Below, one piece after another: positions 1,693-52,615 of a stretch of DNA of 64,000 nucleotides. The DNA is from Gigantopelta aegis (lineage: Eukaryota; Mollusca; Gastropoda; Neomphalida; Peltospiridae), in NCBI RefSeq assembly GCF_016097555.1, contig NC_054702.1:112650468-112714467 (forward strand), given 5' to 3'. A model generated the notes under the pieces. The model saw only the letters and a program-made list of their open reading frames with translations. It was not told the DNA's origin and did no database searches. The first letter of the stretch is position 1, and each line of letters opens with the position of its first letter. Made by a program: the position numbers and the translations under genes.

Positions 1693-4600
1693 TCAGAACG
1701 TGAGATCTTTGTTTGAATATATTCTTGAGGGCGGCAGGCACATTTTCCCACAAGATCCTGCATTACAACATTTCAAATCTCCTGAGCAATCCCGATCAAA
1801 GCTGCAGGGTCGTCCACATCTTCGAAACCTTGACCTTGACCCTGACCAGGGTAGGTCGAGGTTAAACGGACAGCGTCCAGGCTTCACGACTACGCTGACG
1901 TTGGTACACTGACGTGGACAGTTACCACAACACTTCTGGCCTATACCACACTCGGCGTCCGAGGAACACCGAGCAAGACATATTCCAATTCGTCCTGGCA
2001 CTAGCTTAGGACATTTTCCAGGATGAGTCACTATGCGTTCTGTGGGGGAAAAACATCAAACGTCAACAATAAACCCAAAACATACACTTCCTCCTAGGAG
2101 GATCACCATTACTAATGAAAACATGTACTGGTAGAACTATAAACCATAGACTGATACTAACACAACACACTTACTGATACTAACATAACACACTGATACT
2201 AACACAACAAACTTACTGATACTAACACAACGCACTTACTGATACTAACACAACACACTTACTGATACTAACATAACACACTGATACTAACACAACAAAC
2301 TTACTCATACTAACATAACACACTGATACTAACAAACTTACTGATACTAACATAACACACTGATACTAATACAACACACTTATTGATACTAACACAACAC
2401 ACGTACGGATATTAACACAACAAACTTACTGATACTAACACAACACACTTACTGATACTAACATAACACACTGATACTAACACAACAAATTTACTGATAC
2501 TAACACAACACACTTACTGATACTAACACAACATACTTACTGATACTAACACAACACACTGATACAAACACAACAGACTTACTGATACTAACACAACACA
2601 CTTACTGATACTAACACAACACACTTACAGATACTAACACAACACACTTACTGATACTAACAACACACTTACTGACATTAACACAACACACTTACAGGTA
2701 CTAACACAACACACTGATACTAACAAACTAACCTACTGATACTAACATAACACACTGATACTAACACAACACACTTATTAATACTAACACAACACACGTA
2801 CGGATACTAACACAACAAACTTACTGATACTAACAACACACTTACTGATACTAACATAACACTCTGACACTAACACAACACACTTACTGATACTAACACA
2901 ACACACGTACGGATACTAACATAACACACGTACGGATACTAACACAACACACTTACTGATACTAACACAACACACGTACGGATACTAACACAACACACTT
3001 ACTGATACTAACATAACACACTGATACTAACACAACACATTTACAGATACTAACACAACACACAAATACTAACACAACACACTTACTGATACTAACACAA
3101 CACACTTACTGATACTAACACAACACACTTACTGATACTAACATAACACATTGATACTAATACAACACACTGATACTAACACAACACACTTTCTGATACT
3201 AACATAACATACTGATACTAACAAAACAAACTTACTGATACTAACACAACACACTTACTGATACTAACATAACACACTGATACTAACACAACAAACTTAC
3301 TGATACTAACATAACACACTGATATTAACAAACTTACTGATACTAACATAACACACTGATACTAACACAACACACTTATTGATACTAACACAACACACGT
3401 ACGGATACTAACACAACAAACTTACTGATACTAACACCACACACTTACTGATACTAACATAACACACTGATACTAACACAACACACTTATTGATACTAAC
3501 ACAACACACGTACGGATATTAACACAACAAACTTACTGATACTAACACAACACATTTAGTGATACTAACATAACACATTTAGTGATACTAACATAACACA
3601 CTGATACTAACACAACTCACTTACTGATACTAACACAACACACGTACGGATACTAACATAACACACGTACGGATACTAACACAACACACTTACTGATACT
3701 AACACAACACACGTACGGATACTAACATAACACACTGATACTAACACAACACATTTACAGATACTAACACAACACACAAATACTAACACAACATACTTAC
3801 TGATACTAACACAACACACTTACTGATACTAACACAACAAACTTACTGATACTAACATAACACACTGATACTAATACAACACACTGATACTAACACAACA
3901 CACTTTCTGATACTAACATAACATACTGATACTAACACAACAAACTTACTGATACTAACACAACACACTTACTGATACTAACATAACACACTGATACTAA
4001 CACAACAAACTTACTGATACTAACATAACACACTGATATTAACAAACTTACTGATATTAACATAACACACTGATACTAACACAACACACTTATTGATACT
4101 AACACAACACACGTAAGATACTAACACAACAAACTTACTGATACTAACACAACACACTCACTGATACTAACATAACACTGATACTAACACAACACACTGA
4201 TACTAACACAACACACGTACGGATATACTGATACTAACACAACACATTTAGTGATACTAACATAACACATTTAGTGATACTAACATAACACACTGATACT
4301 AACACAACTCACTTACTGATACTAACACAACACATGCACGGATACTAACTGATACTAACACAACACACTTACTGATACTAACACAACACACGTACGGATA
4401 CTAACACAACACATTTACTGATACTAACATAACACACTGATACTAACACAACAAACTTACTGATACTAACACAACACACTTACTGATACTAACACAACAT
4501 ACTTACTGATACTAACACAACACACTGATACAAACACAACAGACTTACTGATACACACACAACACACTTACTGATACTAACACAACACACTTACCGGTAC

Positions 4601-7600
4601 TAACACAACACACTTACAGATACTAACAACACACTTACTGACATTAACACAACACACTTACAGGTACTAACACAACACACTTACAGGTACTAACACAACA
4701 CACTTACTGATACTAACACAACATACTTACGGATACTAACACAACACACTGATACAAACACAACAGACTTACTGATACAAACACAACACACGTACGGATA
4801 CTAACACAACAAACTTACTGATACTAACACCACACACTTACTGATACTAACATAACACACTGATACTAACACAACACACTTATTGATACTAACACAAAAC
4901 ACGTACGGATATTAACACAACAAACTTACTGATACTAACACAACACATTTAGTGATACTAACATAACACATTTAGTGATACTAACATAACACACTGATAC
5001 TAACACAACTCACTTACTGATACTAACACAACACATGCACGGATACTAACATAACACACGTACGGATACTAACACAACACACTTACTGATACTAACACAA
5101 CACACGTACGGATACTAACACAACACATTTACTGATACTAACATAACACACTGATACTAACACAACAAACTTACTGATACTAACACAACACACTTACTGA
5201 TACTAACACAACATACTTACTGATACTAACACAACACACTGATACAAACACAACAGACTTACTGATACAAACACAACACACTTACTGATACTAACACAAC
5301 ACACTTACCGGTACTAACACAACACACTTACTGATACTAACAACACACTTACTGACATTAACACAACACACTTACAGGTACTAACACAACACACTTACAG
5401 GTACTAACACAACACACTTACTGATACTAACACAACATACTTACGGATACTAACACAACACACTGATACAAACACAACAGACTTACTGATACAAACACAA
5501 CAGACTTACTGATACTAACACAACACACTTACTGATACTAACACAACACACTTACCGGTACTAACACAACAAACTTACTGATACTAACATAACACACTGA
5601 TATTAACACAACACACTTATTGATACTAACACAACACACGTACGGATACTAACACAACACACTTACTGATACTAACATAACACACTGATACTAACACAAC
5701 ACATTTACAGATACTAACACAACACACTGATACTAACACAACACACTTACTGATACTAACACAACACACTTACTGATACTAACACAACACACTTACTGAT
5801 ACTAACATAACACACTGATACTAACACAACACACTTACTGATACTAACACAACACACGTACGGATATTAACACAACACACGTACGGATACTAACACAACT
5901 CACTTACTGATACTAACACAGTACACGTACGGATACTAACACAACACACTTACTGATACTAACATAACACACTTACTGATACTAACATAACACACTGATA
6001 CTAATACAACACACTGATACTAACACAACACACTTTCTGATACTAACATAACACACTGATACTAACACAACAAACTTACTGATACTAACACAACACACTT
6101 ACTGATACTAACATAACACACTGATACTAACACAACAAACTTACTGATACTAACACAACAAACTTACTGATAGTAACACCACACACTTACTGATACTAAC
6201 ATAACACACTGATACTAACACAACACACTTACTGATACTAACACAACACACGTACGGATACTAACACAACACACGTACGGATACTAACACAACACACTTA
6301 CTGATACTAACACAACACACGTACGGATACTAACACAACACACTTACTGATACTAACATAACACACTGATACTAACAAACTTACTGATACTAACATAACA
6401 CACTGATACTAACAAACTTACTGATACTAACATAACAAACTGATACTAACACAACACACTTATTGATACTAACACAACACGCGTACGGATACTAACGCAA
6501 CAAACTTACTTATACTAACACAACACACGTACGGATACTAACACAACAAACTTACTGATACTAACACAGCACACTGATACTAACACAACAAACTTACTGA
6601 TACTAACATAACACACTGATACTAACATAACACACTTATTGATACTAACACAAGACACGTACGGATACTAACACAAGAAACGTACTGATACTAACACAAC
6701 ACATTTACTGATGTTAACGCAACAAACTTATTGATACTAACACAACAACAAACTTACTGATACTAACACAACAAACTTACTGATGTTAACGCAACAAACT
6801 TACTGATACTAACACAACAATAAACTTACTGATACTAACACAACACACTTACTGATGTTAACGCAACACACTTACTGATACTAATACAACAACAAACTTA
6901 CTGATACTAACAAAACAAACTTACTGATACTAACACAACAGCAACTTACTGATACTAACACAACAAACTTACTGATGTTAACGGAACAAACTTACTGATA
7001 CTAACACAACAACAAACTTACTGATACTAACACAACAACAAACTTACTGATACTAACACAACACACTTACTGATGTTAACGCAACAAACTTACTGATACT
7101 AACACAACAACAAACTTACTATACTAACACAACACACTTAATGATGTTAACGCAACAAACTTACTGATACTAATACAACAACAAACTTACTGATACTAAG
7201 AAAACAAACTTACTGATGCAGGTGGGAAGGCCGGACGGACACGGCGCTCTGAAACACTGGATCGGCGTTACTTTACACACGTAGCCTTTTGGACATTTGT
7301 GTTTCTGAAAGTCCACAAACAAAATGGGTTTCTTAAAAGTCATAAAAAACCATGAAATTTAATTTATAACGTAATTGACCATCTGTTTTGTTTTGTCGTG
7401 TCTACGGAATCTAGGACTCGCTCCCATGAGACTAGTTCAAGACGAGTAATGTTTAGCTCACCGTAACATGTCAATTTATGAAAAGTACTTTAAGGTCACA
7501 ATCGAAATCGTACATGTTTCTTTAATATCATATTTTATAAACGTACCGTCAATAAAACAAATATTATCGTTTATGAACTTACCCAGCATAGATATCCTTG

Positions 7601-10795: not shown

Positions 10796-11049
10796 GTGCT
10801 TATATCCAATTAAGGTTCAAGCACGCTGTCATGAGCACACACCTCAGCTATCTGGGATGTCTGTCGAGAACAGTGTGTTAGTTGTTAATTGTTAGTGGTT
10901 AGTGAGAAAGAAGAGGGTTTAGTGGCCTTACACCTACCCATTGAGTCGTTAAAACTCGCTCTGGGTTGGAGCCGGTACCGGGCTGTGAACCCTGTACCTA
11001 CCAGCCTTATATCCGATGGCTTAATGACGACGCCACTGAGGCCGGTTTT
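10795..11049 (-). mobile_element. tRNA-derived SINE (type 2)
   Basis: On the minus strand it begins GGCCTCAGTGGCGTCG, continues with a B-box-like GGGTTCACAGCCC and GGTACCGGCTCC, and ends in the ATCCAATTAAGG-type body. The head contains A- and B-box-like sequence expected of a Pol III promoter. Confidence 0.75.
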
Positions 11050-11296
11050 GTGTTTTATTTTAATATATAGACTGTTTATAATTGGACTGACTATAATAGC
11101 ATGTTTTATTTTCATGTTAGATGTTTTTAATATGTTTTAATGTAATATTTGTATATTTTATATGTCGATTCTTTATAGTCTCTCGTAACTCCATATGGAG
11201 TGGTTCAGTGCTATTATATATATTATTGTTTTAATGATGTATGTTTTTTAAAACTGAGGTGAGACTTTAATAAACAAGTTGTTTGTCTGTCTGCTT
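11050..11296 (+). mobile_element. Short insertion resembling a 5'-truncated LINE tail
   Basis: AT-rich 247-bp segment ending GACTTTAATAAACAAGTTG followed by TTTGTCTGTCTG, which looks like a polyadenylation signal followed by a short 3' repeat. It is flanked on both sides by the same 110-bp SINE segment. Confidence 0.45.
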
Positions 11297-11406
11297 ATTG
11301 AGTCGTTAAAACTCGCTCTGGGTTGGAGCCGGTACCGGGCTGTGAACCCTGTACCTACCAGCCTTATATCCGATGGCTTAACGACGACGCCACTGAGGCC
11401 GGTTTT
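11297..11406 (-). repeat. Second copy of 110-bp SINE head segment
   Basis: It matches 10940-11049 with one difference (TAATGACG versus TAACGACG). It contains only the tRNA-like head of the type 2 SINE and stops abruptly at the 247-bp insert. Confidence 0.85.
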
Positions 11407-14218: not shown

Positions 14219-17200
14219 TCAGTACATTCTTCTTGGCCGCACGCATATTTTGCCACACCGTCCTACTTTACAACATTTTAGATTTCGTGGACAGTCGCCA
14301 TCATAGCGGCAGGATCGTCTGCATCTTCGAGACCTTGACTTTGACCTTGACCAGGGAAGGTCCAGGTGAGACGGACAGCGCCCTGGCTTCACGACAGGTG
14401 ACACAATCGGGTGTTCTGCGAATAAGAAATAAAACAAATTGTGAAATGTGCTAGAGGACAATCGATCCTAAAACCCGTGGCACATGAGAGATCCGCTCTA
14501 CCACAGAGTTACATCCGCATCTCTTGCAGAAATGAACGCACTCATTGTTTTCAAACTTGTCGTATGGTAGTTTCGTACAGACTCGCAATATACTAGGTTT
14601 GATAAGTCGCAGAATCGATCGCCACCAGAGACCGAAGGGTTTTCCTCGCCCTAACTACTGCCCATCAAAAGATGTGGTATGTACTGTTCGGGAAAGTGCA
14701 TGTAAAATAATCCCCTGGTTCGTTTTCGGTATGAGTAGCCTATGTGTCGGCACCGGGTTTGTGCTCTCTTTCTCGACCAACTAATATAAGTGTCGAAATA
14801 TCTATACCTTTGACTTCGACTAGACATAGTTTAAAATGTACTGACGTGCCGTTAAACACACATTCCTTTCCTTTCCTATACTGATAATCAACAGTATTCT
14901 GAATAGAGAACCGACGGGCACTTATGTACTTGGATTGTTGGATCAAAAGCCCATCAGGGTTTCTACATCCCAAACAGTGTACCACCTGCTACATCAACGG
15001 TCACGGTGTGTTCTGTGCTTTATGTGAAAGTTCTCTTAATGGGAAAGTTTAACTGGTTTTCTTTGAAGCTTATGTGTCACAATTGTTGAAAGTTTGACAT
15101 CCAATAGCCGATATTCTGGATATCACCACTATTCTGATTATCACCTCTATTCTTCATATAGTAACAATTCTGGATATCACCAATATTCTGAATATCACCA
15201 ATATTCTGAATATAATCAATATTCACAATATCATCTTTATTCTTGATATCACGGCTATTCTAAATATCGTCGCTATTCTGAATATCATCGCTATTCTGAA
15301 TATAACTACTATTCTAGATAAAGCAACTATTTTAAATATCACCACTGTTTTGAATATCAGCACTATTATGCATAACGGCACTATTATGGATATCACCACT
15401 ATTCGGAATATAACTACTATTCTAAATAACAGCACTATTCTGAATATCGCCGCTATTCTAAATATCAATACTATGTTACCTTTACTTTGATTAAAATAGA
15501 GTTCGCCTCTAACATTAAATGTTTATTTTGATAAACTGCAGACTGGTCTAATAAGCTGAATAAATTAATGGCGGAATAACCTGGAATTGTACATAGACTG
15601 GTGAAATAATATGCAACTGTACTAAGACTGATGTAATAACCTGGAACTGTGCTAAGAGTGGTGTAATAACCTGGAACTGTACTAAGACAGGTGGAATAAC
15701 CTGAAATTGTACTAATACTGGTATAATAACCTATAACTGTACAAAGACTGGTGTAATAACCTGGAACTGTACTAAGACTGGTGTAATAACCTGGCACTGT
15801 ACTAAGACTGGTGTAATAACCTGGAACTGTACAAAGACTGGTGTAATAACCTGGAACTGTACTAAGACTGGTGTAATAACCTGGAACTGTACAAAGACTG
15901 GTGTAATAACCTGGAAAAGTACTAAGACTGGTGTAATAACCTGGAACTGTACTAACACTGGTGTAATAACCTGGAACTGTACTAACACTGGTGTAATAAC
16001 CTGATGCAGCAGACTGGTGCAATGCACGATGTTGAAACACACTTACTAATACAGAGCGGCACTTCGCCACGACATGGCGGCCCGACACATCGGTTCGGCA
16101 TCACTCTACACATCTGGCCTCGTGGACACTTGTGGTTCTGAAATAGCGCACAAAATGGATTGTTATATTTAAAATCTATATAAGACGCCCACAATTCAGT
16201 TTACTCAAGATTGGCAATGCGGTCGATTCATATTTATCAAGTAGCAATCGGTCGGAAGGGCAGTCGTTCAAGCGTAGCAGGTTGGTCTGTCGGTCAGTCG
16301 GCTGGTCGGTCGGTCGATCCTGGTCTGTCAGTAAGCAAGCCAGCCAACCTGCCAGCCAGTCAGTCAGTCAGTTATTTGCGAACTTTAAAAATAGTGAAAC
16401 TCGCCAGCGAACTTATCTTCGAGTAAATATATAGAAATACTCAGAAGATTTTATTTAGAGTTGTATTATGTTTTAAAATCTTACCTTTTTTGATTTAGCG
16501 CATGCGTGAACAATGGTGGACGTGTTTTTCGGAGCTCTCGAAAAAATATATATAAAACATCTGAATATGAACTGAATTCGAACTGAATGTAGTGTGAAAT
16601 GTTTGAGAAAGCAAGAAGAACGACTACATGTAAGTCAGAAACTTTTAAATGCGAAATAGAATGAAATATAACGAAATATAACGAATTGACGATAAAGGTG
16701 TAAGCACTAACCTACACGACCCATATACCTGATTTATACCCGGTTGATTTAAATGTACTATGATAATTTGTTGTAATTGTAACGATGGACTCCTAAGACA
16801 GAGTGATCTAGGTGCATTAGCCGTTTGTTAATGAGAAGTGTGTGTACCGTGCTTCGTGTATTGTGACTTAAGCTATTGACTCGCGCACTGATCAAGACAA
16901 AATGGCTACAAGTGAGAATGTATCTACAGTTTTAGGCAATACAAGGGAGGTGATGTACGGGAGTAATGATAAATCTGAAAATCTGGACTATATCACTCAG
17001 GTAATGACAAAGATGGATTCAAGACTATCACAAATAGAAATGTATGTGAGAAAAATTGAAAACGTTCAAGCGACGCTCTCTGCATTAACTATGAAAGTTA
17101 ACTCCTTGGAAGCCGACATTAAAAGTATTCAGTCGACTAACTTAAACCTGGAGTCCAGTCTGCAAGGCTTGGGTCACCTGTATGACTGTGTCAAGTATTC

Positions 17201-20200
17201 AACCGACAACAATGCAGCGGAGTTAATACAGATGAAAAGCTCAATCAAGCAAATTGACAGTAACAATGCGGCAGTTAGAAATGAGTTAGAGTTTCTCCGA
17301 AAAGAAAACGAAGAAATGAAAGGTGCGATAACAGATACGCAATGCCGCTCCATGAAGTACAACCTAATCTTTACCGGTCTCGCCGAAAACGCCAACGAGA
17401 ATCCCGAATATGTAATCAGAGATTTCTTAAACGATGAACTTGGTTTAGACTGGGATTTGCAATTTGGTAACGTCCACCGATTCGGAAGGAGACAGAGAGG
17501 GAAACCGCGACCCATTGTTGTGAAGTTCCTGTACTATAAAGAACTCCAAATTGTTAAAGAACATGCATATCAACTGAAAGGTAAGCCATATGGCATTAAC
17601 GAACAGTTTCCTGCAGTGATTGAGGAACGCCGGAGAAGGTTGTATCCCACGGCAAAGAGACTCAGACTAGGCGGCCATAAAACAAAAATGGTGAGAGATA
17701 AACTGTTTGTCGACGGAAGACCATACGACGAAACGACATTCACAGACGGCCGTTCATACAGAGACGTTGTGCAAGGCAGCACGAGTGAGCCGCGACAGAC
17801 AAATCAAAGTCGACAGATTGAACAACCACAACAAAGCAGAGTTCGCGACGACGGCAGAAGACCGACACCAAAACGACAGCGTGCTTCGTCAACACCAACC
17901 GCGGAGAATACCACCGAATCAGAACTGAGACATGACGTAAACAAGACCGACTAGTGGTGCGCGGAGGGTGACTTGTCTGTACTTTCGTGGAACGTTTGCA
18001 GATCACTGGAAGACAAATTAAAAGACTCACAGTTTTTAGAAATAATAATTAATTATGATATTATTTGTCTGTACGAATGTTGGACAGAAGCCGGTGAACT
18101 TTCCTTACCTAACTATATTACTTATGATGTACCACGAAAACAGGGAAAAGGGGGAGGGATAGTGATATTTATCAAAGAATGTTTGAAAGAATGTTGTACG
18201 TTAGTTGAGAAAGGGTGTGATAGCATTGTTGTTCTAAAAATCAAATGTAATACTAGTTGTTTTAGTAGATCAAGAGAGAAAGACGTTTATTTATTCGCTT
18301 GCTATATACCACCTGTCAACAGTACTTACTATGATCATAATGATACTGACTTATTCATAACCCTTGAAGCCCAGATAGGGATATATTCTGAGTTAGGAGA
18401 TGTTATCGTAATTGGAGACTTCAATAGCAGAACTGGCACTGATCTGGACTACATTAGCAATGATATACTACCGGATTGTTCAATTTCAATATTAGGAAAT
18501 ATATTCGAATACTTACCTGATAATAATGATATCGCAACACGCTTCAGTGAAGATAAAACTGTCAACCATTTTGGTAGAAAACTGTTATCTATTTGTAAAA
18601 ACAGCGGTTTACGGATTGTGAATGGTAGGCTTGAAGGAGATAAGAATGGTAGTATTACATTTTATAACACAAATGGCACAAGCCTCATAGATTATTTACT
18701 TGTTGGTGAATCTTTTTTCAGACACATCAAAAATTTCCAATCCGGAATATTTAATTGTTTCTCAGATCATTCTCCTGTTAGTTTTAAAATAGCTCATTTA
18801 GTTAAAAATTCGATCACCGAGATTAACAAAATTCAAACACACACCAGTATAAAATGGAATGATGAAAACAATTTTATAATCAGTGGCGAAATCGCTGAAA
18901 ACATTGATATGTTACTAAATACTTGTACTATAAATGATAAAAGACAGAAAAACGTAAATGAATGTGTAGACACATTTGTACAAAAACTTAATGAAATTTT
19001 AATTTTACCTTATTGTTCTGTAACAGAGTACAAGTCAAATTCAAAGAAAAATGCGAAAGCCATCGTTATACCCGATGACAAACCCTGGTTTAACGAGACG
19101 TGCAAGAAATGCTATCTTGATTATAAGAAGGCTATACAAACGTTTAATGCAAATAGAACTTCTATTAATCGAATTGAACTTGTTCGTGCGAAGAAACTAT
19201 ACAAGACATTGCAATATAAACTTAAACGAAAATATAAATGTCAACAAGGTAATATGCTTAATTATCTACGAAAGCATAACCCTAAAACATTCTACAAACA
19301 TTTTCAAAAACGTAAGCAAAAGGTTAAAACTGATTTAGGTAATACTGATTTTTTAACGCACTTTGGTAACCTTGCTTCGTATGAACCAACTATTAACAAT
19401 GAGGTGGATTATTTTTTATCTAATTTTGATAAAACTACCTACGACCTAAATTGCAATGTGCTGGATAGCGAAATAACAGAGAAAGAAATAACTATTGCAA
19501 TACACAAGCTGAAGAAAAATAAAGCATGCGGTTATGACAATGTTTTAAATGAATACTTTATTAATTGTATAGACGTTTTAATGCCATGCCTGCTTCTACT
19601 GTTCAATGGTATTTTTAACTCGGGTTATTTTCCCCAAAACTGGGCTGTGGGATCTATCGTTCCTGTTTTTAAGAAAGGTGATAAGAACGACCCGGACAAT
19701 TATAGAGGGATCACGTTAGTGAGCTGCTTAGGAAAATTATTTACCTCTATATTAAATGAAAGGCTCCTAAATTTTGATGAACAAAACAATGTCATTACCG
19801 ATGCTCAGTTTGGTTTCAGAAAGCAGATGTCGACCATTGACGCTATTTTTGTATTACAATCTTTAATAAACAGAACTCTAAAAAATAGGAAGTGATTATA
19901 TTGCTGTTTTGTAGACTACAAAAAGGCTTTTGATTTTGTAAACAGACAAAATTTGTGGTATAAATTAATTCAACAGGGCATAGGAGGAAAATTGTTATCT
20001 CTTATAAGATCTTTATATGATAATGTTAAGTGCTGTGTAAAATATAATGACGTAGTTTCTGATTATTTCGTATGTAGAAACGGTCTATTACAGGGAGAAG
20101 TACTATCACCAATATTATTTTCCATGTACGTTAATGATTGTGAAATGCAATTTTTATCAGACAGTTGTCCATATGTTGAAATACAAACGTTAAATATATT

Positions 20201-23200
20201 CTTAATAATGTACGCTGATGATATGGTACTTTTCTCCGAAACTCCAGGCGGATTACAATCAATGTTAAATTCACTTGCAAATTACACCCAAAAATGGGAT
20301 CTTACCATCAATACAAATAAAACAAAAATAGTTGTCTTTAGAAATGGGGGAAAAGTAAGAAAGAACGAGAAATGGTCATATAATGGCCACCAATTAGAAG
20401 TTGTAGACGAATTTAATTACCTTGGATTATTACTTCGTTTCAATGGCAAATTTAATAGTACACAAAAAAGACTTGCTGAACAAGGACTCAAAGCCCAATA
20501 TTGGATAACAAATATCTGTAGTAAGAATTTCTTTAATATTGAAACAATGTTAGCCGTGTTTGATACTTATGTCAATAGCGTTCTTAGTTACGGATCTGAA
20601 GTCTGGGGTTTTCACTCAGCTCACGATATTGAGAAAGTACATATACAATTTTGTAAAAAAGTATTGGGTGTGCATAAAAGAACATGCAATTATTTTGTTT
20701 ATAACGAATTAGGGCGATATCCTTTAGCAATTATCAGAAAACTTAGAATTTTTAAATATTGGATAAAGCTTAGTAGTACCAGTAACTGTATCTTAAAAGC
20801 TATATATGAGGAAATGTATCAGTACGGAGATACCTGGTTAACGAACATTAAACAAGAACTAGATACGCTTGGGCTAAGTTATATGTGGGACTCGACCAAT
20901 ATCAATTCTAGTTTTTATGTCATAATAAAAGAACGAGTATATGATGTTTTTAAGCAAAATGCCTATAGTACAATAAGGACATCGCCAAAGGGATTGCTAT
21001 ATCAGCACTTATTATTAAATGGATTTACTTTACAAATTTACCTTACAAAACCAATAGAATCTCGCAATTTAAGACAAATAACAAAAATGAGAATTTGTGC
21101 ACATAAATTAAATATTGAGTCTGGTAGGTATAAAAATATCGAAAGGGCACAAAGAATATGTACTTTATGTAACTGTAATGAGATTGAGGACGAATTTCAT
21201 TTTATCCTTCAATGTCCAAGATACGAAACTTTAAGAAAGAAATTCATTAAAAAATACTACTTTAAGCATCCCAGTACTTTGAAATTAATACAACTCTTAT
21301 CAACCGGAAACAATAAAGAGATAAACAACCTAGGAAAATATTTATTACAAGCAAACAGAACTAGGGATCAACTATTACTGGAAATAAACTAATATGTTCT
21401 CATTTTATCATTACCCTAGCCGCTGAGGATAACCTGTAAAATAACTTATCTTTATTCTGTTTTGTTTTTTCTATTATATATGTGTGTTTGTGTGTTTGGG
21501 TGTGTATTTGTGTCTGCGTGTGTGTGTGTGTGGGGGGGTATGTGTGTGTATATATGTATATATGTAAGTCACTCTCCACCATTGTTCCGCACTATTGTAT
21601 ATATTAATGTTTGTTCATTGTTATAATGCTGATAAGTTGAACAACTTAAAGCAATAAAAGAACTTGAACTTGAACCTGGAATTGTACATAGACTGGTGAA
21701 ATAATATGCAACTGTACTAAGACTGATGTAATAACCTGGAACTGTGCTAAGAGTGGTGTAATAACCTGGAACTGTACTAAGACAGGTGGAATAACCTGAA
21801 ATTGTACTAATACTGGTATAATAACCTATAACTGTACAAAGACTGGTGTAATAACCTGGAACTGTACTAAGACTGGTGTAATAACCTGGCACTGTACTAA
21901 GACTGGTGTAATAACCTGGAACTGTACAAAGACTGGTGTAATAACCTGGAACTGTACTAAGACTGGTGTAATAACCTGGAACTGTACAAAGACTGGTGTA
22001 ATAACCTGGAAAAGTACTAAGACTGGTGTAATAACCTGGAACTGTACTAAGACTGGTGTAATAACCTGGAACTGTACTAACACTGGTGTAATAACCTGAT
22101 GCAGCAGACTGGTGCAATGCACGATGTTGAAACACACTTACTAATACAGAGCGGCACTTCGCCACGACATGGCGGCCCGACACATCGGTTCGGCATCACT
22201 CTACACATCTGGCCTCGTGGACACTTGTGGTTCTGAAATAGCGCACAAAATGGATTGTTATATTTAAAATCTATATAAGACGCCCACAATTCAGTTTACT
22301 CAAGATTGGCAATGCGGTCGATTCATATTTATCAAGTAGCAATCGGTCGGAAGGGCAGTCGTTCAAGCGTAGCAGGTTGGTCTGTCGGTCAGTCGGCTGG
22401 TCGGTCGGTCGATCCTGGTCTGTCAGTAAGCAAGCCAGCCAACCTGCCAGCCAGTCAGTCAGTCAGTTATTTGCGAACTTTAAAAATAGTGAAACTCGCC
22501 AGCGAACTTATCTTCGAGTAAATATATAGAAATACTCAGAAGATTTTATTTAGAGTTGTATTATGTTTTAAAATCTTACCCTACACACATCTCTCCGTGG
22601 AGGGGACCGTGCCTGTATGGCTATCACTAACATCGTACAGAGTACCTGCAACAAGAAGAGTATGTCTTGAGGGGAGTAATTTAGGGTACAAAGAGGGAGG
22701 AGTTCGGTACAGAATAACCAGACTTTAAGATGATAGACGGTTAATATTTGTAATGTTTTGTTACATTCTAAGTGTGTTTGAGAAGTTATATTCATAATGG
22801 ACTTCTCGGTTAAAAGGTCCACTCACGTGACTTGCGCAGCGGGGTGGGGGTGGGGGTCGCTGAACAAGAAACAATGAAAAACGATGAACGACAAACAACA
22901 ATGAACAATACACTACATATAAACCGTACACTACAATGAAACGTACATTACAATGAACTGAACACTACCCTGCAGAAAGAAGAAGAAATAATAAATAAAA
23001 GAAAGGAAAAAAGAATGATTGCCAAAATCACTAGTTTATCATCTGCGTCCGAATTGCAAATGAGCATCGCATCATTTCTCTTTGAAAATATTTTCATTCT
23101 AGACATGAGAAAAATTGAACCCCGCATGATTCATGCAAATTCAGTAATAATAAAATGAAGCCGTTTTAACAGTAACGTCACCTTATTAAAAAAACACGAC

Positions 23201-24045: not shown

Positions 24046-24360
24046 GGTGAAAATACCATGCGTTATTTCTGGCTACACATGGTTGTTAACACATGTACGT
24101 GTGTCAACAATTTCAAGAAATACGACTGGCTGCTCCTAGGTGATGACCAGGTCACCAAAGCCAAAACTCCAATGAAAAACTAAACGATGGAAATCGATTA
24201 GACTGTGGCGTATGGTTAACCTAACATTCATGTGTCTGTGACACTTAAGTCAGCTACAAGTGCAACGGCTGTAAATAACTTGTTATCGAAAAAGATGTTA
24301 AAATTTGCTTAAAACCTGTTTTTTTAAGATATGTAAGAAATAGAATAATACATTCGTGTC
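24046..24360. repeat. Interspersed element (copy 1 of 3)
   Basis: Begins TTCTTACACACCCGTTGGTGA, contains CGACTGGCTGCTCCTAGGTGA and GTCAGCTACAAGTGCAACGG, and ends near ATACATTCGTGTCC. It matches 37865-38190 in reverse orientation and, with a nested insert, 26495-26830. Probably a non-autonomous DNA element; no coding capacity seen. Confidence 0.7.
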
Positions 24361-24361
24361 C

Positions 24362-24470
24362 GTTAGATACCATTTATCTCACAACTCGTTGCTTAAAAAA
24401 GGTATCAAACTCGCTTTCGCTTGTTAGATACATTTTAAAACAACCCGTTGTGAGATAAATGGTATCTAAC
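24362..24470. repeat. Perfect 24-bp inverted repeat (hairpin element)
   Basis: Arms 24362-24385 and 24447-24470 are exact reverse complements (GTTAGATACCATTTATCTCA...). The loop contains ACTCGCTTTCGCTTGTTAGA. Shorter relatives occur at 27199-27242 and 12991-13002. Confidence 0.85.
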
Positions 24471-24639
24471 GGCCACTCATGTATTATGCTCTATATATCA
24501 ATAGAAGTAAGTGTTTATTTGGTTATTTATCAGAACCACTGAAGTCGGAGTTGGCGTAGCGAGGGTATATATTGCTGTTCATAGCCTTAGGTGATTGCGT
24601 CTTTGGATGGAATCATATCAGCGAACCCATCCTCTGTTT

Positions 24640-27095: not shown

Positions 27096-27224
27096 ATAGG
27101 TTTTAGTTTGAAAAGGCGTTTACATTTATTTTAAAATTGTTTGGGTTTTTTAGGATAATATATATGTAAGACATAGAAAACTACATTCGTGTCCGTTAGA
27201 TACCATTTATCTTACAGTCATTGT

Positions 27225-27870
27225 AATGGTATCTAACGGCCACTCATGTAATATTCTCTATATCGCGAGGTTATTGTGCGCAATAATATATTATACCAAG
27301 TTGTGTGTTCTTGCGCAAAATAAACGAGTGCAATAAAATAAATAAGAAAGGATATCACGGCAGTAAACACGTGTCAGATGTGGTTATTTTTTTTATGGAT
27401 GTGTATGTTTTGTTGTCTTGAGACATTAGTTATGTAGTAAATACAACTAAATATCGTGTAACCTACATCTCAACTGTTTAGCCGTGCAGGGGACGGAACG
27501 CAATTGCTGGGACAGCGTTAAGCTAGTGGATTCCCCTAGTAGAACGAAGTCTCGTTCAGTATTCGGTGCTATTCCACATAATAGTCATATTCAGTACATG
27601 CTGGTCGTTAGGGATACCCCTGCCTTGGATACATCCGCCGGGAAATTCGCAGAATGTGCCGAAGACAGACGTGCTTGAACCTTCAGAGGATGTAAACACG
27701 AGTCAACTGGTTGATTGAGTGATTGGTCAGGGAATAATTACGGAATGTGAAGGGGAATATCTCGAGCTGACAACCAGAACTTTCACTATTCCCATGACTT
27801 CGGACATGACCGGTTCTACTTGTTAGCCGTCCATATTAAAACAAAACCAAAACGTTCTACCCGTGTATTG
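27225..27870. repeat. Segmental duplication copy 2 (downstream flank of gene C)
   Basis: Aligns with 12985-13650; see that entry. It lies between gene B's upstream region and the 40/45-bp array. Confidence 0.8.
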
Positions 27871-32705: not shown

Positions 32706-35700
32706 TCACCAGTATATTCTACTGGGTCTTAGACATGTTTTGCCACACCGTCCTACTTTACAACATTTCAAATTCCGTGGACAGTCGCCATCATAGCTGC
32801 AGGATCGTCTGCATCTTCGAGAGCTTGACTTTGACCGTAACCAGGGAAGGTCGACGTCAAAAGGACAGCGTCCCGGCTTCACGATAACGCCGCTGACGTT
32901 CTTACACTCACGTGGACAGCCACCACAACACTTCTGTCCTATACCACATTCATCGTCAGAGAAACAGCGGACAACACATATTCCAAAAACTCCTGGCACT
33001 GGCTTAGGACATGTTCCTGAATGAGGAATTGACGGGAATTCTGTGAAAAACAAAATTAGTCTTAAGGTGCTAGATTACTTATGACCCTGATACAGATCGC
33101 ACCTCAGAGAAGCGCTCAACCCAAAGTACACCTGCCCTCTTACCTAAAGGGAGGCACTAATTGGTGTTCACGGTGATATAAGCGACCTATGATGTTTCCA
33201 ACTTTCCATACAGACTTCTCACATTCTAAAGACCATGTCGACTAGGTTTGATGAGTCGCAGGATCGACCGCCATTGGTGGACATTGGGGTTCTTCCCGCT
33301 CTACATGTGCCCATCAAAAGATGTGGTATGTACTATTCTGTCACTGTACCAGGCTAGCTCACAACACGACCCAAGTCATCAAACGTTGTGGTGTGAGCTG
33401 CGCTGTCTTTGTGAAAGTTATCTTGCTATTAATCACACTATTCTAGATATAGGAACGATTCTGAATATCACCACTATTCTAGATATCACCACTATTCTAT
33501 ATATCACCACTATTCTAGATATCACCACTATTCTAGATATAGGAACGATTCTAGATATCACTACTATTCTATATATCACCACTATTCTAGATATCACCAC
33601 TATTCTAGATATAGGAACGATTCTAGATATCACTACTATTCTATATATCACCACTATTCTATATATCACCACTATTCTATATATCACCACTATTCTAGAT
33701 ATAGGAACGATTCTGAATATCACCACTATTCTAGATATCACCACTATTCTAGATATCACCACTATTCTATATATAGGAACGATTCTAGATATCACTACTA
33801 TTCTATATATCACCACTATTCTATATATCACCACTATTTTATATATAGGAATGATTCTAGATATCACCACTATTCTATATATAGGAACGATTCTAGATAT
33901 CACCACTATTCTATATATCACCACTATTCTATATATCACCACTATTCTAGATATAGGAACGATTCTGAATATCACCACTATTCTAGATACCTCTACTATT
34001 CTATATATCACCACTATTCTAGATACCACTACTATTCTATATATCACCCCTATTCTATATATCACCACTATTCTAGATATCACTACTATTCTATATATCA
34101 CCACTATTCTATATATCACCACTATTCTAGATACCACCACTATTCTAGATACCACCACTGTTCTATATATCACCACTATTCTACTATTCTATATACCACC
34201 ACTATTCTAGATACCACCATTATTCTATATATCACCACTGTTCTATATATCACCACTATTCTACTATTCTATATATCACCACTATTCTAGATACCACCGC
34301 TGTTCTATATATCACCACTATTCTACTATTCTATATATCACCACTATTCTAGATACCACCATTATTCTATATATCACCACTGTCAATATCTTCGCTATTC
34401 TCAATATTGCCACTATTCTGAAAATATTCTAAGTATCACCACTATTCTGGATATCACCACTATTCTAGATATCACCACTATTCTAGATGTCACTGCTATT
34501 CTCAATATCTTCGCTATTCTGAATATTGCCACTATTCTGAAAATCCCCACTATTCTAAGTATCACCACTATTCTGGATATTCTGGATATCACCACTATTC
34601 TGGATAGTACCACTACTCTAAATCAATATCGCCGCTATTCTGAATATCACACTATTCCACCTTTACTTCGATGACAATACAGTTCCCTACTAATATAACA
34701 CTGCTTATTTCCATAACCTGATACACCCGGTACTGGTGTACTGCACGATGTTAAAATATACTTACTGACGCAGGTGGGCGTGTCGCCGGGACATGGCGCT
34801 TTGATACATCGAATCGGCATCACTTTACACACCTGGCCTCTGGGACATTTGTAGTTCTGAAATAGCGCACAAAATGGCTTGTTATATTCCCAAGCTATGA
34901 AAGACGCCCACAATGTAGTTTACTCAACATAGTCCACGCTGTCGGTCGTTGGGTCGGGTTGACGTATGGTCGATTTACATGTGTCAAATACCAGTCGACC
35001 CGGAAGGTGGTCAGTCCGTCGTAGGAAGTTGGTCGGTCGGTCGGTCGGCTGGTCGGTCTATCCTGGTCTGTCAGTGGGCGAGCCAGCCAGCCAGCCAGTC
35101 AGTCAGACAGTTATATTATATTGCTAACCTTTAAAAATAGTGAAACTCAACAGCCAACTTATCATCGAGTAAATATATAAAAATACTCATCAGATTTTAT
35201 TTAGAGTTGTATTGTTTTAAGATCTTACCCAGCATGCATCTCTCCGTGGAGGGGACCGTGCCTGTATGGCTAGCACTAACACCGCACAGAGTACCTGCAA
35301 CAAGAAAACTGTGTCTTGAAGGGAGTCATTTAGGGCACAAAATGGGAGGACTTTGTCGCGCCCGCAGTCACATGTATGTGTAAAATTGCACACTAAACAA
35401 TGAAGAATGATGAACCATACACAGCAATGGACTATACACAACATAAACACCGTATACTACAATGATCCCTGCACAGCAATGAGCCGTACACTACACTACA
35501 ATGAAACGTATAATACAATGAACCGTCAACGACACTACAGTGAAACGTACAATACAATGAACCGTACAATACAATGAACCGTACACGACACTGCAATGAA
35601 ACGTACAATACAGTGAACCGTACACTACAGTGAACTGAACAAAACAATGAACCGTACACTACAATGAACCCTGCACTACAATGAACCGTACGTGAATCGT

Positions 35701-39601: not shown

Positions 39602-40813
39602 CGAGGGGTGTCCCAAAAGTTTGCAGCCTGACTATGAAACGCAGCTCGCACCAAATCTTTTATTCTATCATTTTTCTACATAGTCTCCCTTGAATACATT
39701 TTGTCCAGCGTTTCTCCGGCATTGTTAACCCTAAAAACCAGGCTTTGTCTTGCAGCCCTAAAAATTCCTCTACAGCACCTATCCGTCTCAAATGTTATCC
39801 CCTGGGGTAAGATTTGAACCTAGGAAACAAGTAAAAGTCTGAGGGGGCGAGATCTGGAGAATAAGCAGGGTGGGGAAGAATTCGGAAGCTACAGTCACTG
39901 ACAGCGCCAACCGCAACTTGCGAAGAATGAGCCAGAACATTGTCCTAAAGCAGCCACACACCTCTTCGCAGTTTTCCGTGACGTTTTTTAAAAATTCTTT
40001 TCGTTAGCGATTGTGGAACCTTTCTGTAGGTAATCAATCATGATAACACCGCCGCTATCCCAACTGCTACTGGAAGCGATTGTCTTGAACTTCGTGGGAA
40101 CGGTTGATTCAGGATGTTTCCATTTCATGCTTTAACGTTTTGTTTCGGGGTCAAAATGATGAACCCAAGTTTTATCCTGAGTCACAGTATGCGCAAGAAA
40201 TGCTTCTGGGTCAGTCGGTATGCCTCTAGAAATTGACGAGATGTGTGCATCCTGGCCCGCTTCTGGTCTGCTTTTAACAGTTTTGGCACCCACCATGCAG
40301 ACACTTTATTCATATATAGATGCTCATGCAGAATTCGTTCCACCGATATTTTACTAATGTTATGGATACAGGCTAAATGTCTGATGGTGATACGGCTGTC
40401 CTTCATGACAGCATTAACGTTTTCGTCAGTGGACACTTCACATGGACGACCAGAGCGTGGATCATCTTCAGTACCTTTTCTACCCCGTTTGAAATCAGCA
40501 CACCACTGCTTTATGGTACTGTACGAAGGAGCATCATCCCCTAATGTTTCGGACACATCCTCGTGAATTTGCTTTGGCGTCAGTTTCTTTAAATGCAAAT
40601 ACTTAATTACTGCACAACAGTCAGTTTTATCTATTTTCTGTGAATTCAGAGGGGTACGTGAAAACAAAGTATTGCTCTGATAGGTTGTACACAATGGAAT
40701 CATCTAATACTGACCATTCATCACTTTAGATGTGACTCTACTTCACTGAAAATGTTGGAATCATTGTGACCCCTCTTTCATAGTCAGGCCGGAAACATTT
40801 GGGAAACCCCTCG
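39602..40813 (-). mobile_element. mariner-type DNA transposon
   Basis: Terminal inverted repeats 39602-39639 and 40776-40813 match at 34 of 38 positions (CGAGGGGTGTCCC...). TA flanks both ends (39600-39601 and 40814-40815), the Tc1/mariner target duplication. At 1212 bp it is slightly short of a typical 1.3-kb mariner. The transposase lies on the minus strand and is broken. Confidence 0.92.
39700..40703 (-). pseudogene. mariner transposase, inactivated
   Basis: The N-terminal DNA-binding part is open over 40182-40703, with helix-turn-helix-like TPKQIHEDVSETLG, STIKQWCADFKRGR and DDPRSGRP motifs. A one-base loss near 40200-40215 shifts the frame before the catalytic domain, where VHHFDPETK can be read in the new frame at about 40150. 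An in-frame stop follows that motif, and the rest is further degraded. The element could be mobilised only in trans. Confidence 0.85.
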
Positions 40814-43699: not shown

Positions 43700-43982
43700 T
43701 TATTTTCGTTCTTATTTCCAATTGAGGTCCAAACACGCACAGTACTGGGCACACACATCAGCTGTCTGGGCACACACATCAGCTGTCTGGGCTGTTTGAC
43801 CAGGACAGAGGGTTAATGGTTAGTGGCTAGTGTTTAGTGAGAGAGGAATTGTTGTAGTGGTCATACACCTACCCACTAAGTCGTTAAACTCGCTCTGGGT
43901 GGGAGCCGGTATCGGGAAGCGAACTCAGTACCTACCAGCCTTTAGTCCGATGACTTAACCACTACTCCACCGAGGCTGGCTC
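43700..43982 (-). mobile_element. Type 2 tRNA-SINE
   Basis: Full-length-looking copy in reverse: TTCCAATTGAGGTCC body to GCCGGTATCGGGAAGCGAAC and CCACCGAGGCTGGC head. It contains a local 22-bp tandem duplication (GGGCACACACATCAGCTGTCT) near 43747-43790. Confidence 0.8.
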
Positions 43983-43989
43983 CAATCTG

Positions 43990-46790
43990 TAATACTCTTT
44001 TGTTATAAATGTGGAATGATTCAGTTTTGAACCTCAATTTTGCACTACTTTCGACAATTCTTAAAAAAATTAAGTAGATCGTGTTAACTAGCTTTCTTTT
44101 AATTGTTAATAAAAACAAAACATGCAGAAATATTTTTAAAAGTTGTTTGTCGTAAAAATGTGAGAATTTTCTCAGTCGGCTTCTGGCGGGAAAAAAATCC
44201 GAAACGTAGAATACGGATTCCCCTTGTGCCATGTATTAATTTTTAAATAAAGAGTTCGATTGTTATTTTTTATTATTATTGATGTAATAGTTAACACTTT
44301 GAATTATTAAAATTGAACGTGATTGTTTTTTTTTACATTAATGTAATTATAATAATACTATAAACCACAGAAACACTTTACACACTAACGCGCTGCGCTT
44401 TTCATACAGTGTGTAAAGCGATTCTGTGCTTCATACTTCTTTTACGAACGTTAACAACCCCCATTAGATTCAGTTCTTAAGTGAAGGTGCATTTGTGTCA
44501 ATAGCTGGGTGTAAATTGAGTAAATCACTGCCAATATCATGAAATATCGACTGGTTTCATTGATACGAAGCCAGGATCGTTTTCTCATTAAAACAGGATC
44601 ATCGGTACGTTCGATACGTAACGGTCTGCTCATAGAATACTCTGTCAATGGCCTCTAATGAAAGGCGCAATAAACCGATAAACAGAAAACATGCATGGCA
44701 AATAATTTAGATGCTTAATCTTTTTTTTTTGTGTTGGTTTAGGTTTAAGCTTAATTGTATTTCTGATATTGTGCTAAAACAACATACATTTTTCGACATT
44801 ATTTCTTTACAAGTATGTAAAGTAAATCAATAAAATCAAGGTTATAACTTAAGTCGTGTTTAGCTCCTTTTGTGTGTGGTGAATAAAAACTAAATAAAAA
44901 TATTTTTACGAATATATTGTGGTATTAACACAACGATAATAAAGAAATAACTCATATACTGACACTGTAGGAGAGATGATCTGTCACCAGATTCTACAAA
45001 TGTCTTGTTTTTCACTACTCAGCCGTACTAAACTTACTGGCAGCATAATATCTAGATAGTACATTATTCTAAAATATATCCACCGTTGCCAATGGCGATA
45101 GTGCTTGCATATTATATTAAACACGTGATGTATCTCGGATATTAAATACAGTACACGCGTATTTTACATTACGTTAATGGTCTTTGTAAAATAACTGATA
45201 TTTGATATTCAATGTAGCTTTTAAATGGCAAAATTTAATATTGAGGTTTATATTATAGCTTGTACCAGTCACCATTTTAATTCCAGCTTTGACTGTTTTG
45301 GAGATAAAATAAATTCTACTTTCATATACAAATATAAATAAAACAAATGTCGTCTGCTTATGGAGTATGAACTTACATTTTCTCGAGTTTTGCATACAAA
45401 GAAAACGGTCCTCTAACTAGTAGAGACATATTAACAGAAGAATAATGTATAGAGTTTAGTAGGATAAACTAATCAAGAAAATATTATGTCAAACTGATCT
45501 GACGACATTCTTCACTATGGGCAAGTGTTGCTGTTTTATTTATGTCTTGAATATGTTTTGTTTTACAAATTGCACAAAAGGTACACGTAGGACATTAGTT
45601 ACTGACAAAAGAGTTTTCCTTAATCAAAATAGTTTATAGGTATACCTATCTACTTTACAGTTTACCTGTTTGATGTTAGATCTCAATGACAACAGCAAGC
45701 AATTACTGACACATCCTATCTTATGTCGGGAATTTGGTGCTCTAATAGGGGACCCCCCCCCCCCCCCCACACACACACAAAATACCCCCACAATAACATA
45801 CTTTAACTATATGACTTTGAATTGTTCTGGATATTGATTTAAGCAATATATAATTAATAAAATACCATAAGAGAGGTAAGAATTAACGTTTTCTCTATAT
45901 TAATTAGCTAAAGTAAAGGTATTTTTGAGAATCAAGTTCTTTTATGTTTTGGTTCCAAAGAAAGAATCAACAAAACATTTTCTAAATATAGTTTGAAATC
46001 TTAGTAATATATAATGGAGTGTAAGAAAATAGACATTATAAAGGTGAACTGCACACTGGTTTGGAAGATGAGTATCATATTCGTCATTTATGATATAATT
46101 ATTAAATTTTAAGGCTTAAACTAGTGTTTTTAGTGCAGCAAATTATATAACGTTTAAACATCATTGAATATCAATAGGACATTTTTTAATATATTTATAG
46201 CCATTTTAATAATTTTATAACTAATCATAAACTCCGATGTTTCGAAATAAGTCATTGATACTTGAAGAAGACCACTATAAAAACGACCTACAAAATACAC
46301 GTTGGTCATTTTTCATAATCGCAAAATACAATTTAACATAACTTCTTACATGTATGGAAGGACGTCTATAAAATAGCTCGAATGCATTTGAACGTATTAT
46401 ATCTAAAAGGTGTTTTTCATGACAGTAGTTGCTGTTGCCGTGTAGATACAACCGTCTGCTAGGCTCACAATAGACATAAACAGAAAAAAGTCTATAAAGG
46501 CATACCTGTTAAATAAACCCATGCAAAAGTGCTCAGTGTGTGACAGACAATTAAAAAAATAAGTCTGTTTTGTTCATGTTTGGTTAACCCTGCGTGTGCT
46601 GTAACCTCACCGTGGTGCAGGGGTGTAACATTCTCTTTGAGAATGGCCAATACAGCACAAAATTGAAGTTTTGAGTAAAATTCAGTATCCGTAAAATTCT
46701 GTGATATTTGTGTTTTTGCACAGTTCTTTACACTGTTTTTGTTTAAGTCTTGAATTTTTATATTGATGTTGATCATCACTTTATTTATTT
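43990..46790. other. Intergenic DNA, no gene recognised
   Basis: AT-rich. It includes a short inverted repeat (CACTTTACACAC ... GTGTGTAAAG, 44374-44420), a poly-C/CA run (45752-45780), and a fragment TGGTGCAGGGGTGTAACATTC (46613-46634) of unknown kind. No convincing frame. Confidence 0.45.
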
Positions 46791-47078: not shown

Positions 47079-50000
47079 CTATCTCCGACGAGATTTCACC
47101 ACTCTAATGTCGGTATTGTTTGACGAGTTATCATCATCACTGTCGTCCTTAGACCCGTCAGAATCATCATCGTCATCCTCACCACTACTCTCATTAACAA
47201 CAGAATCATCACTCTCCTCATCAGCATCATCATCATCAACATCAGAATCATCGTCCACAGCGTCACATTCGTCTTTGCCCTCTTTATTAACATTGTCGTC
47301 GGTGTCATTGTCCTCAGTATCAGAGTGTTCGTCCTCTTTATTTGCATTGTCCTCAGCGTCAGAATCACCGTTTTCTGATTTATTGACATGTTCCTCGGTA
47401 TAAGAATCACATTCGTCCTCTTTGCTAACAGTGTCCTCAGTATCGGGAACGTCTTTGTCCTCAGTATTAACATTGTCCTCAGTATTAACACTGTCCTCAG
47501 AATCAGAACCATCTTTATTAACATTGTCGTCAGTATCAGAATTTTTGTTATCTTCATTGCTAACATCGTCCTCTGTGTTAGAATCACGATCCTCGTCCAC
47601 ATCACCATCACTATCAGAATCACCGTTCTCATTTTGATTGTCTTCAGTATCAAAATCTTCGTTGTTATTGTAGTCCGTCTCAGAGCCGTTTTTGTCCACT
47701 TCACTAACATTATCAGCAGTATCAGAATCAACGCTTTCCTCTTTACTACATTCAGCGTCAGAATCGTCAGTATGCTCTTTATTGCATTCAGTATCAGAAT
47801 CATCATTGTTGCCTTCACTAACGTTATCAGCAGTATCAGAATCACCGCTTTCCTCTTTACTGCATTCAACATCAGAACTACCACTGTCCTCCTTATTGCA
47901 TTCAGTATCAGAATCGTCATCAGCCTCTTTATTGCATTCAGTATCAGAATCATCATTGTTACCTTCACTAGCATTTCCAGCGGTATGAGAATCACCACTA
48001 TCTTCCTCGCTACTGTTTACATTAACATCAACATCACTGTCATCTTCATTTGTATCACCTTTGTCGCCAGTCGTCTTGGCTTTCTTAGAAACTTTCCTTT
48101 TGCCTTCATCATCTTTATCTTTGTCATACATCTTCTTATTTCTTTGTTTTCTCTTTTTCTTAGTCACTTTCATTTTGTACATTTGACGCTTGACACCGTC
48201 GTTTTTGCTCACAAGATCAGTAGGTTCATTATCACCACCGATCTCGCTGTCGCCAGTTTCGTTGATGATATCATTTCTTCTGTCACCATCCGCTTCTTCT
48301 TTTACACAAGTGCTATTGTATCGATCATCATCAACATCATTGTCGAAATCATCACTGTAGTCTGCTACAGTTTTATTATCGCGACTTGCCTTATTATGTC
48401 TGTCAAAACTACGTCTGTGTTTTACACCATCATCATCACTACCATCGACGTCATCGTTTCCTACTAATTGACTGTCTTTAGGGTCTACTGTATTGGTATC
48501 ATTATTAGTTTTGTTATTATGTTTACTTCGAGCATTTGTAGAAATACGGCGACTAGTTATTCCTTTGCCATTATTTCGTTCCTGATTGTGCTGTTTATTT
48601 AAACCACACAGAGAACATTCGGACGGTGTTTCTGTAGACTCAAGCGATATACTTGTTTCTCTATTAGAATCAGAGGTTTTGTCCGTCCCTGTGCTACTAG
48701 AGTCTTCTTGTGTCTCTGCATCATCGTCTGATGGCATACCTAACGATATTGTGGACTCGTCCGTCAAGGAGTCATCAAGGAGCTCGTTGCCTTCACTATA
48801 CACTTCTGATTTCACACTGATTCTACTGAAGGCTTCAGATTTCTTACTGCACGATTCAGATTTCTCACTGCACTCACTTCTGGCTACCTCTGGCGAAGTT
48901 CTACTTTCTGTTTCATACAGTGTCCTTGTTGCCTTTTTCACTGGTGATACACTGTATGATGTTGATGGATCTGACTGGCTATCCATATGTTCTGTTGCAA
49001 GAGGACCGATTACAGTTGGCAAGGTGTTGTCAAAACTACAGTGTTTGTGAGATCCTCTTGATAACTTCCTGTTGGTGCGTTCTGTGGCAATATGACCAGT
49101 ATCACCATTATCTGAAGAAACATTCTTATTATACTCGTCTTTTGTAGATGTGGTGTTACATTCAATCAGTTGGATTTGTGCTGAATGTTTCATATTTTCC
49201 ACATTCACGTGGACGTGTCTGTGGGTTAATGAGTTACTACGGTTCACACACAGCTTGTCACTTATTACCTCCCTTTCCTCCGACGTCATTTCCTTTTCGA
49301 TCGCATCTTGGATGTTGTATTCCCCTAATTGCATTATTCTGTCCTGTAATGGCACACTATTGGTTAAATGTTCTCCAGTATTGAAACTTCCTGTTTCACT
49401 TGTTGTGCTATCTTTCGAAGGTTCCTCTGCCCAGGCTTCTGTTCGTGAACACTCATCTCCATGCACAATTTTATAGATCGGCTGATTTCTAGCTAAAGCC
49501 ATGTGCATCACAAAACGAGCGTCTTTCTTGACCATTGGTCGCTGTTTTATACTCTTCCTGGGAGGAGCGTCCTTCTTCCTCTTCATTTTCTCCAGGTAGT
49601 CTTTCGACACGAGACACGCTCTGAAGCAACCTTTGCACTTGTACGGGCATCCTGCGCTGTGTTTCAGCTCGCCGTCTTCACAGTACATCAGAGGACGCAG
49701 CAATGACCCCTTGTAACTCTGAGAAGAGCCGTCTGTGGCGTCCCAATCCATGTCAGCACTGGTGACCAGCATCTTCCTGTGATATGCTGATTTTGCCCTC
49801 CAGTACAAAGCAGGTCCTCGTTTTGACAATGCAGGTTTAGTGGTATCACTTCGCACATTGGGGGGAGCTGACTTAGCTCGCTGTGCGAACATATGACTAC
49901 CATATATATTCTTTGAAACGAGAGCAGAATGCAACCGATTAGCCGACACAAATTCACGTCTGTCAGTGATGCTAGCTGTTTCAGAAGCGTTTAGTTTGAT

Positions 50001-50492: not shown

Positions 50493-50881
50493 TGTGTGTT
50501 TGTTGACTTCTCAGAATATCATCGTGACTTGAGTACCATCCACACTAATATCGATTACAATGTATAAACATTTTGTGAACAAAGAATGTGAATAAACACT
50601 ACTCCATGGTATTATTTTTGGTAGAACCTCCAGTCCATATCTCCATACTCAAATGTTTATGAATTTTAACACCCTGCATGTTGTTGGTTTTCTGTGACTA
50701 ATGAATACTTTGCTTATTAGCCAGTTCGATCCGGTAGGCGCTCCCCAATATCACCTAGAGCAATCCGACCATTTGGGCTTGAGCTCCTGTGTTTGTGCCT
50801 AACTTGTGTGTATCAGATGAGAATAAACAACCATCAATGAAGCCGTTACTACCGGTTTTTGACATTCTCTTCATGCGTGAT

Positions 50882-52240: not shown

Positions 52241-52615
52241 ATCGCAATCATGTTGTATAATTTTGAGTATCATTAGATTGTAAAGGGAAAGAACTCAGTA
52301 TGTCTTACTGATCACCAAAACTAACAACTTATCTTCTCTCTTCACACTCAGCCATGTAGACAGACAGACAAACAAATAATTTATTCATAAATAGGTGTCA
52401 TTCATTTAGAATGACTATCCTGAGTTTGTAGCCATTACAATAGCCAAATTAATACAGCTGGCTAATAAAACCCATAAACCTTTTGAAATATAACGCCTTG
52501 TGTTAGGGATTACTGTATACAGTTACTGTAGCTACTGCAAACACTGGGATGATCAAATATACATTGAACATACCTATTCTAATCAAGATGGTGTGTGTAC
52601 ATGTATATTGTAATT

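Follow-up and report, generated by a model that had tools for sequence, protein, structure and literature searches.

How a LINE comes to lie exactly between two copies of one 908-bp segment is the question raised by a 64,000-nucleotide stretch of the genome of the gastropod Gigantopelta aegis (the window, below). The two copies could be a very long target-site duplication (TSD) made by the insertion itself, they could stem from a separate event before or after it, they could belong to the element, or they could be an error of assembly. The features from which the argument starts are these:

15578..16485, + strand: left copy of the 908-bp segment, read here as a TSD; its junction with the left flank is native (15443-15538 and 15983-16485 are adjacent in a paralogue)
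15575..16003, + strand: minisatellite of 14.3 units of 30 bp that starts the duplicated segment; copied at 21673-22098, missing from the paralogue
16486..21672, + strand: LINE of 5,187 bp, apparently full length, its 5' end taken from this one copy
16902..17954, + strand: LINE ORF1 from the ATG at 16902, 350 aa with a long coiled coil, stop codon TAG at 17952-17954
17955..21392, + strand: LINE ORF2, APE-type endonuclease and reverse transcriptase (RT), in the frame of ORF1, with one in-frame stop at 19893-19895
21627..21653, + strand: LINE 3' hairpin with upper and lower stem, common to a related LINE 3' end near 1073-1097
21660..21672, + strand: (GAACTT)n tail of the LINE, adjoining the right repeat copy
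21673..22580, + strand: right copy of the 908-bp segment; its junction with the right flank is native (22091-22704 aligns across the right repeat edge)

A LINE between two near-identical segments

The two segments, 15578-16485 and 21673-22580, are identical at 907 of 908 bases, the sole mismatch being 15956 C against 22051 G. Both lie in direct orientation with their inner edges meeting the LINE ends, and the bases just outside the repeat differ at each side, allowing zero extension, so that its coordinates are exact. The gap between them (16486-21672, 5,187 bp) is occupied by the LINE, whose tail abuts the right copy. The preliminary description of this locus had claimed both the near-identity and the exact fit of the LINE into the gap, and both held. 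We give the length of the duplication as 905-908 bp, because the AAC with which the repeat opens can equally be read as a continuation of the (GAACTT)n tail, whose sequence is GAACTTGAACTTG.

No other pair of at least 150 bp at 99% identity was found in the 64-kb window by self-megablast, of which 14 of 243 rows were kept after removal of mirror rows, of those within three satellite blocks and of those shorter than 60 bp. A seed-and-extend scan, run independently over distances of up to 9 kb with tandem arrays masked and matches of low complexity removed, gave the 908-bp pair a score of 904 and the next pair 106. Chance origin of the pair is excluded.

Divergence between the copies is 0.11%, a single difference (Poisson 95% interval 0.003-0.61%), and the 482 bp of repeat beyond the minisatellite show none. 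The one mismatch falls inside the minisatellite, where the unit in the left copy equals the neighbouring unit, so it may be a product of array conversion rather than of point mutation. A recent date had been read from the near-zero divergence; so small a difference does make the event look recent, provided that the copies have not been kept alike by conversion.

The LINE is of the APE type, its ORF2 matching PF03372 (E 2.3e-9), PF14529 (E 5.3e-8) and RVT_1 (E 3.9e-23). Among known structures in the PDB, the first piece of ORF2 matches human L1 ORF2p and the second both L1 ORF2p and R2. Searches for related LINEs with this second piece gave one pattern match in viral contigs and nine in prokaryote genome contigs, none of them confirmed. 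ORF1 had no Pfam match above a curated cut-off among the 25 listed of 26 matches, and its predicted model is a long coiled coil that is poor beyond the coiled coil (mean pLDDT 56.6). ORF1 and ORF2 are parted by the single TAG at 17952-17954 and no ATG precedes the endonuclease domain in ORF2, so that readthrough or another restart would be needed.

The position of the 3' end of the LINE is supported by an older, related LINE end in the window, whose match to the 5,187-bp element stops at 1109. The hairpins of the two are predicted to fold alike (z-scores -3.1 and -4.6) and differ in one base pair, of which both bases are changed. Like stringent L2/CR1-type LINEs, the element ends in a two-part stem (upper and lower) followed by short tail repeats and lacks poly(A), and a 3' hairpin plus a short tail repeat is described for ZfL2-1 and ZfL2-2 in PMC4176376. 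We accordingly call the element L2-like, a label that describes its 3' hairpin and tail repeats rather than a position in an RT phylogeny. Its 5' end is known from this single copy, by which it is apparently full length.

The target and its LINE-free paralogue

The insertion lies in a gene with a WAP domain, at a minisatellite in an intron. It may be a perlwapin-like mollusc gene. The parts that bear on the duplication, and the diverged copy that serves as reference for the ancestral order, are:

14219..14415, - strand: downstream exon with WAP domain, stop codon included (PF00095, E 2.1e-9 for 14222-14404)
16047..16137, - strand: 91-bp exon, left copy, with acceptor and donor sites
22142..22232, - strand: 91-bp exon of the same gene, right copy
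22580..22645, - strand: upstream exon of 66 bp, into which the duplication reaches by one base
34625..35353, + strand: diverged LINE-free paralogue of the target, about 77% identity

The paralogue, which has neither the LINE nor the 30-bp minisatellite, is separated from the right copy by 12.6 kb and from the left copy by 18.7 kb. The right copy continues into its flank as in the paralogue: 22091-22704 aligns to 34713-35353 at 77.6%, passing the repeat's right edge. For the left copy the alignment covers 15996-16485 only and ends exactly at the LINE, and the left flank (15443-15538) aligns to 34625-34720, with a 25-base overlap with the start of the 908-bp counterpart at 34696. Judged by these alignments, the ancestral order is left flank, 908-bp segment, right flank; the target was thus in single copy as far as a 77% paralogue that lacks the minisatellite part can tell. 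The left repeat edge borders this minisatellite and so cannot be read to the base from the paralogue.

The same comparison bears on the idea that the 908 bp are the element's own. Penelope and TART are elements with terminal direct repeats, the layout here resembles long terminal direct repeats of that kind, and the repeat starts with a minisatellite. Against this, the paralogue carries the unique part of the segment once, in native order and without a LINE, and this part holds a host exon with its splice sites. The repeat is thus host DNA and not part of the LINE, and we leave next to no probability to terminal repeats owned by the element, which the paralogue already contradicts.

The complete 91-bp exon lies inside the duplication; it has a conserved counterpart at 34766-34856 and also matches 7200-7319. 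Spliced models of the gene stay open with either copy of the exon and lose the frame early with both or with neither, and the corresponding exons of the paralogue can likewise be spliced into an open frame, whether the acceptor at 33040 or that at 33016 is used. Two further WAP exons lie at 1717-2019 and 32712-33017. There are three related WAP-domain gene units in the window, all on the minus strand (1717-7319, 14219-22645 and 32712-35294), and the large minisatellites between their exons differ, with units of 23 bp, of 18 and 30 bp, and of 18 bp respectively. The right edge of the duplication falls one base inside the 3' end of the upstream exon (22580-22645), so the left copy has a splice donor without its exon; that the edge lies at an exon end is probably coincidence. 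A template switch onto the local pre-mRNA is ruled out as a source of the repeat, the gene being on the minus strand and the repeat in plus orientation.

An ordinary insertion with a short TSD might instead have been followed by a local duplication, or by capture of neighbouring DNA during repair. Capture of nearby DNA at repaired breaks is documented in PMC2671141, where proximal copies reach 619 bp at most, against 908 bp here, and where copies less than 50 bp from their template were left out. The 908-bp copies have their flanks in native order and both their inner edges at the LINE ends, for which a later duplication or capture would need two exact coincidences, and we find this sequence of events hardly credible.

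A second insertion with the same layout

A smaller arrangement of the same kind lies 4.2 kb away:

10940..11049, + strand: left copy of a 110-bp duplication, within an older SINE-like repeat
11050..11296, + strand: 247-bp retroposon-like insert with an AATAAA...GTTTGTCTGTCTG tail
11297..11406, + strand: right copy of the 110-bp duplication, the pair found by self-comparison

The 110-bp copies differ at one base. The insert ends in ...AATAAACAAGTTGTTTGTCTGTCTGCTT, a (GTCT)n-type tail unlike that of the LINE, and the tail motif recurs at 52361-52385 on the minus strand. Homology to a SINE-like copy at 43840-44010 passes the left edge for the left 110-bp copy only, so that this copy is native and the right one the duplicate; at the right edge of the repeat the SINE-like homology stops. 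Judged at the left edge, then, the arrangement is that of the 908-bp case. The pair is unlikely to stem from two independent SINE insertions, given that identity is 99.1% within the pair and 82-83% to that other copy in the window with which the match is longest. In the seed-and-extend scan no non-tandem direct repeat scored higher than the 908-bp and 110-bp pairs.

We also looked at the flanks of six hand-picked retroposon tails (three of the ten listed candidates plus three others). Two of the six have long flank repeats, a proportion that is no rate, one has a 10-mer, and three, one of these at the window edge, have no exact flank match of at least 10 bp; TSDs of 3-5 bp could not be scored in this test. 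A 31-bp repeat (24349-24379 and 27182-27212) was dropped as a candidate TSD, being part of a fold-back-like element that is present twice (24329-24496 and 27162-27263, with 31 bp identical). Elsewhere in the window are a partial mariner-type transposase (40185-40703, Mos1-like helix-turn-helix, PF17906) and, on the minus strand, a 1,143-codon open frame (47082-50510) with no Pfam match up to E 0.1.

The second case weighs on two further explanations of the first. Near-identical duplications are a usual sign of false duplication in an assembly, which here would mean that two haplotypes or reads had been joined wrongly. An erroneous junction of this kind would have had to change over precisely where the LINE ends, with no overlap of sequence. 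The paralogue shows the right outer edge to be native and the left flank to stand in its original order, and the layout expected of target-primed insertion occurs twice in the window; we give an artefact very little credence. The segment could also have been duplicated in tandem first, with the LINE later hitting the junction exactly. Unrelated short tandem duplications do occur in the window (a 61-bp unit at 63648-63777), and the ACC common to both ends of the duplication is a possible junction microhomology, which on this view would pass for a 3-bp TSD of the LINE. The LINE, however, would have had to hit a single point among 1,816 bp to within some 3 bp (about 0.4%), and the second case would need equal luck within 220 bp (about 3% by our own arithmetic), which leaves a tandem duplication as the first step improbable.

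Probably one insertion with two distant joins

We consider it very probable that the locus arose by one target-primed insertion of the LINE with a TSD of 905-908 bp, the two joins being made 908 bp apart. Near-identical direct repeats adjoin both ends of the LINE, its 3' end abuts the right copy in the orientation that target-primed insertion requires, with 3 nt common to tail and target, and the arrangement recurs in the window, with 110 bp, around an insert whose tail is different. Counted against this reading are the nature of the empty reference, which is a 77% paralogue without the minisatellite, the 5' end of the LINE, which is seen in one copy, and the four other retroposon tails tested in the window, which have no long exact flank duplication. 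The preliminary description had favoured a very long TSD or a duplication coupled to insertion, and the order in the LINE-free paralogue, together with the orientation of the LINE tail at the repeat, bears it out.

In a target-primed insertion the 3' end of the element marks the first nick, which would here be in the bottom strand at the left edge of the 908-bp segment. The LINE endonuclease would have nicked between 15577 and 15578, at the edge of the minisatellite, and base pairing of the freed 3' end (...GTT) with the terminal AAC of the (GAACTT)n tail of the RNA would have allowed it to prime reverse transcription. Once complete, the cDNA would have been connected to a 3' end of the top strand lying 908 bp further downstream (after 16485), where 3-5 bp is typical of L2/CR1-type LINEs, and fill-in of both 3' overhangs would have given the two copies. 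The distant end may have been an unrelated nick in the same molecule, reached by strand displacement; alternatively, the cDNA may have bridged to a broken end on the sister chromatid or the homologue. The sequence does not decide among a distant nick, a sister chromatid and another repair route, and we slightly prefer the nick in the same molecule. How the second cut at the end of LINE insertion is chosen is described as poorly understood (PMC6895275).

The usual TSD of L2 elements is 3-5 bp, and CR1 is called very similar (PMC4245944). A close parallel is zebrafish ZfL2-2 in chicken DT40 cells (PMC2666801), likewise L2-type, where one of 25 inserts acquired a duplication in the 1-kb range (1,228 bp) in wild-type cells with no repair deficiency; it differs in being a marked element in cultured cells, whereas ours is a natural chromosomal insertion with an exon in the duplication. 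Engineered human L1 in cells deficient in nucleotide excision repair (NER) gave TSDs above 100 bp in 22 of 28 XPD-deficient, 21 of 23 XPC-deficient and 4 of 7 XPA-deficient inserts (PMC5223499). Complemented cells did so in 3 of 9, including 1,520 and 1,612 bp, and in HeLa such events never exceeded 10% (PMC5223499). The size range and layout are those of our case, and the authors foresaw duplication of exons and discuss an unrelated nick reached by strand displacement; theirs is human L1 in repair-deficient culture. A point against our reading is that in HeLa data quoted in PMC2912911 extremely long duplications accompany 5'-truncated L1s, whereas the LINE described here looks full length. 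A 22.6-Mb tandem duplication bridged by L1 in a tumour, for which bridging of sister chromatids was proposed (PMC7058536), likewise has a retroelement between two direct copies of host DNA, at a far larger size and in somatic cells. R9 of bdelloid rotifers has a naturally long LINE TSD of 126 bp (cited in PMC6895275). By the title of its paper R9 is specific to rDNA; in place of a fixed rDNA site and a fixed TSD we find varying lengths (908 and 110 bp) and targets, the 908-bp case lying in a WAP gene at an intron minisatellite.

The near-identical 908-bp repeat is confirmed, but the word "extreme" that had been attached to it should be toned down, duplications from 0.1 to several kb being documented for L1 and L2 LINEs in culture. 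The 908-bp case is a natural example of a known phenomenon, LINE insertion with a long TSD (L-TSD, above 20 bp), and not a new mechanism. The long duplications that we found described are from cultured cells or tumours, save the 126 bp of R9, and by titles and abstract openings we recognised no natural LINE duplication near 900 bp among the matches listed from the open-licence literature. What the locus adds is a whole 91-bp exon of a WAP gene within the duplication and a second case 4.2 kb away. Natural duplications of this length are easily missed, because at least one genome survey (PMC2912911) counted only TSDs of 5-30 bp.

Our results suggest that events with long TSDs reach animal chromosomes and can duplicate exons. 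The second, 110-bp case is a reason to look genome-wide, and measuring the length of the flank repeat of every young retroposon without an upper limit would provide the test. Two unrelated retroposons with long duplications (908 and 110 bp) in 64 kb raise the thought that long TSDs are common in this animal through its host machinery and not through the element, which we regard as unlikely. If it were true, the lineage would be a natural counterpart of the NER-deficient human cells, and LINE insertion would be a regular source of exon duplications and small segmental duplications.
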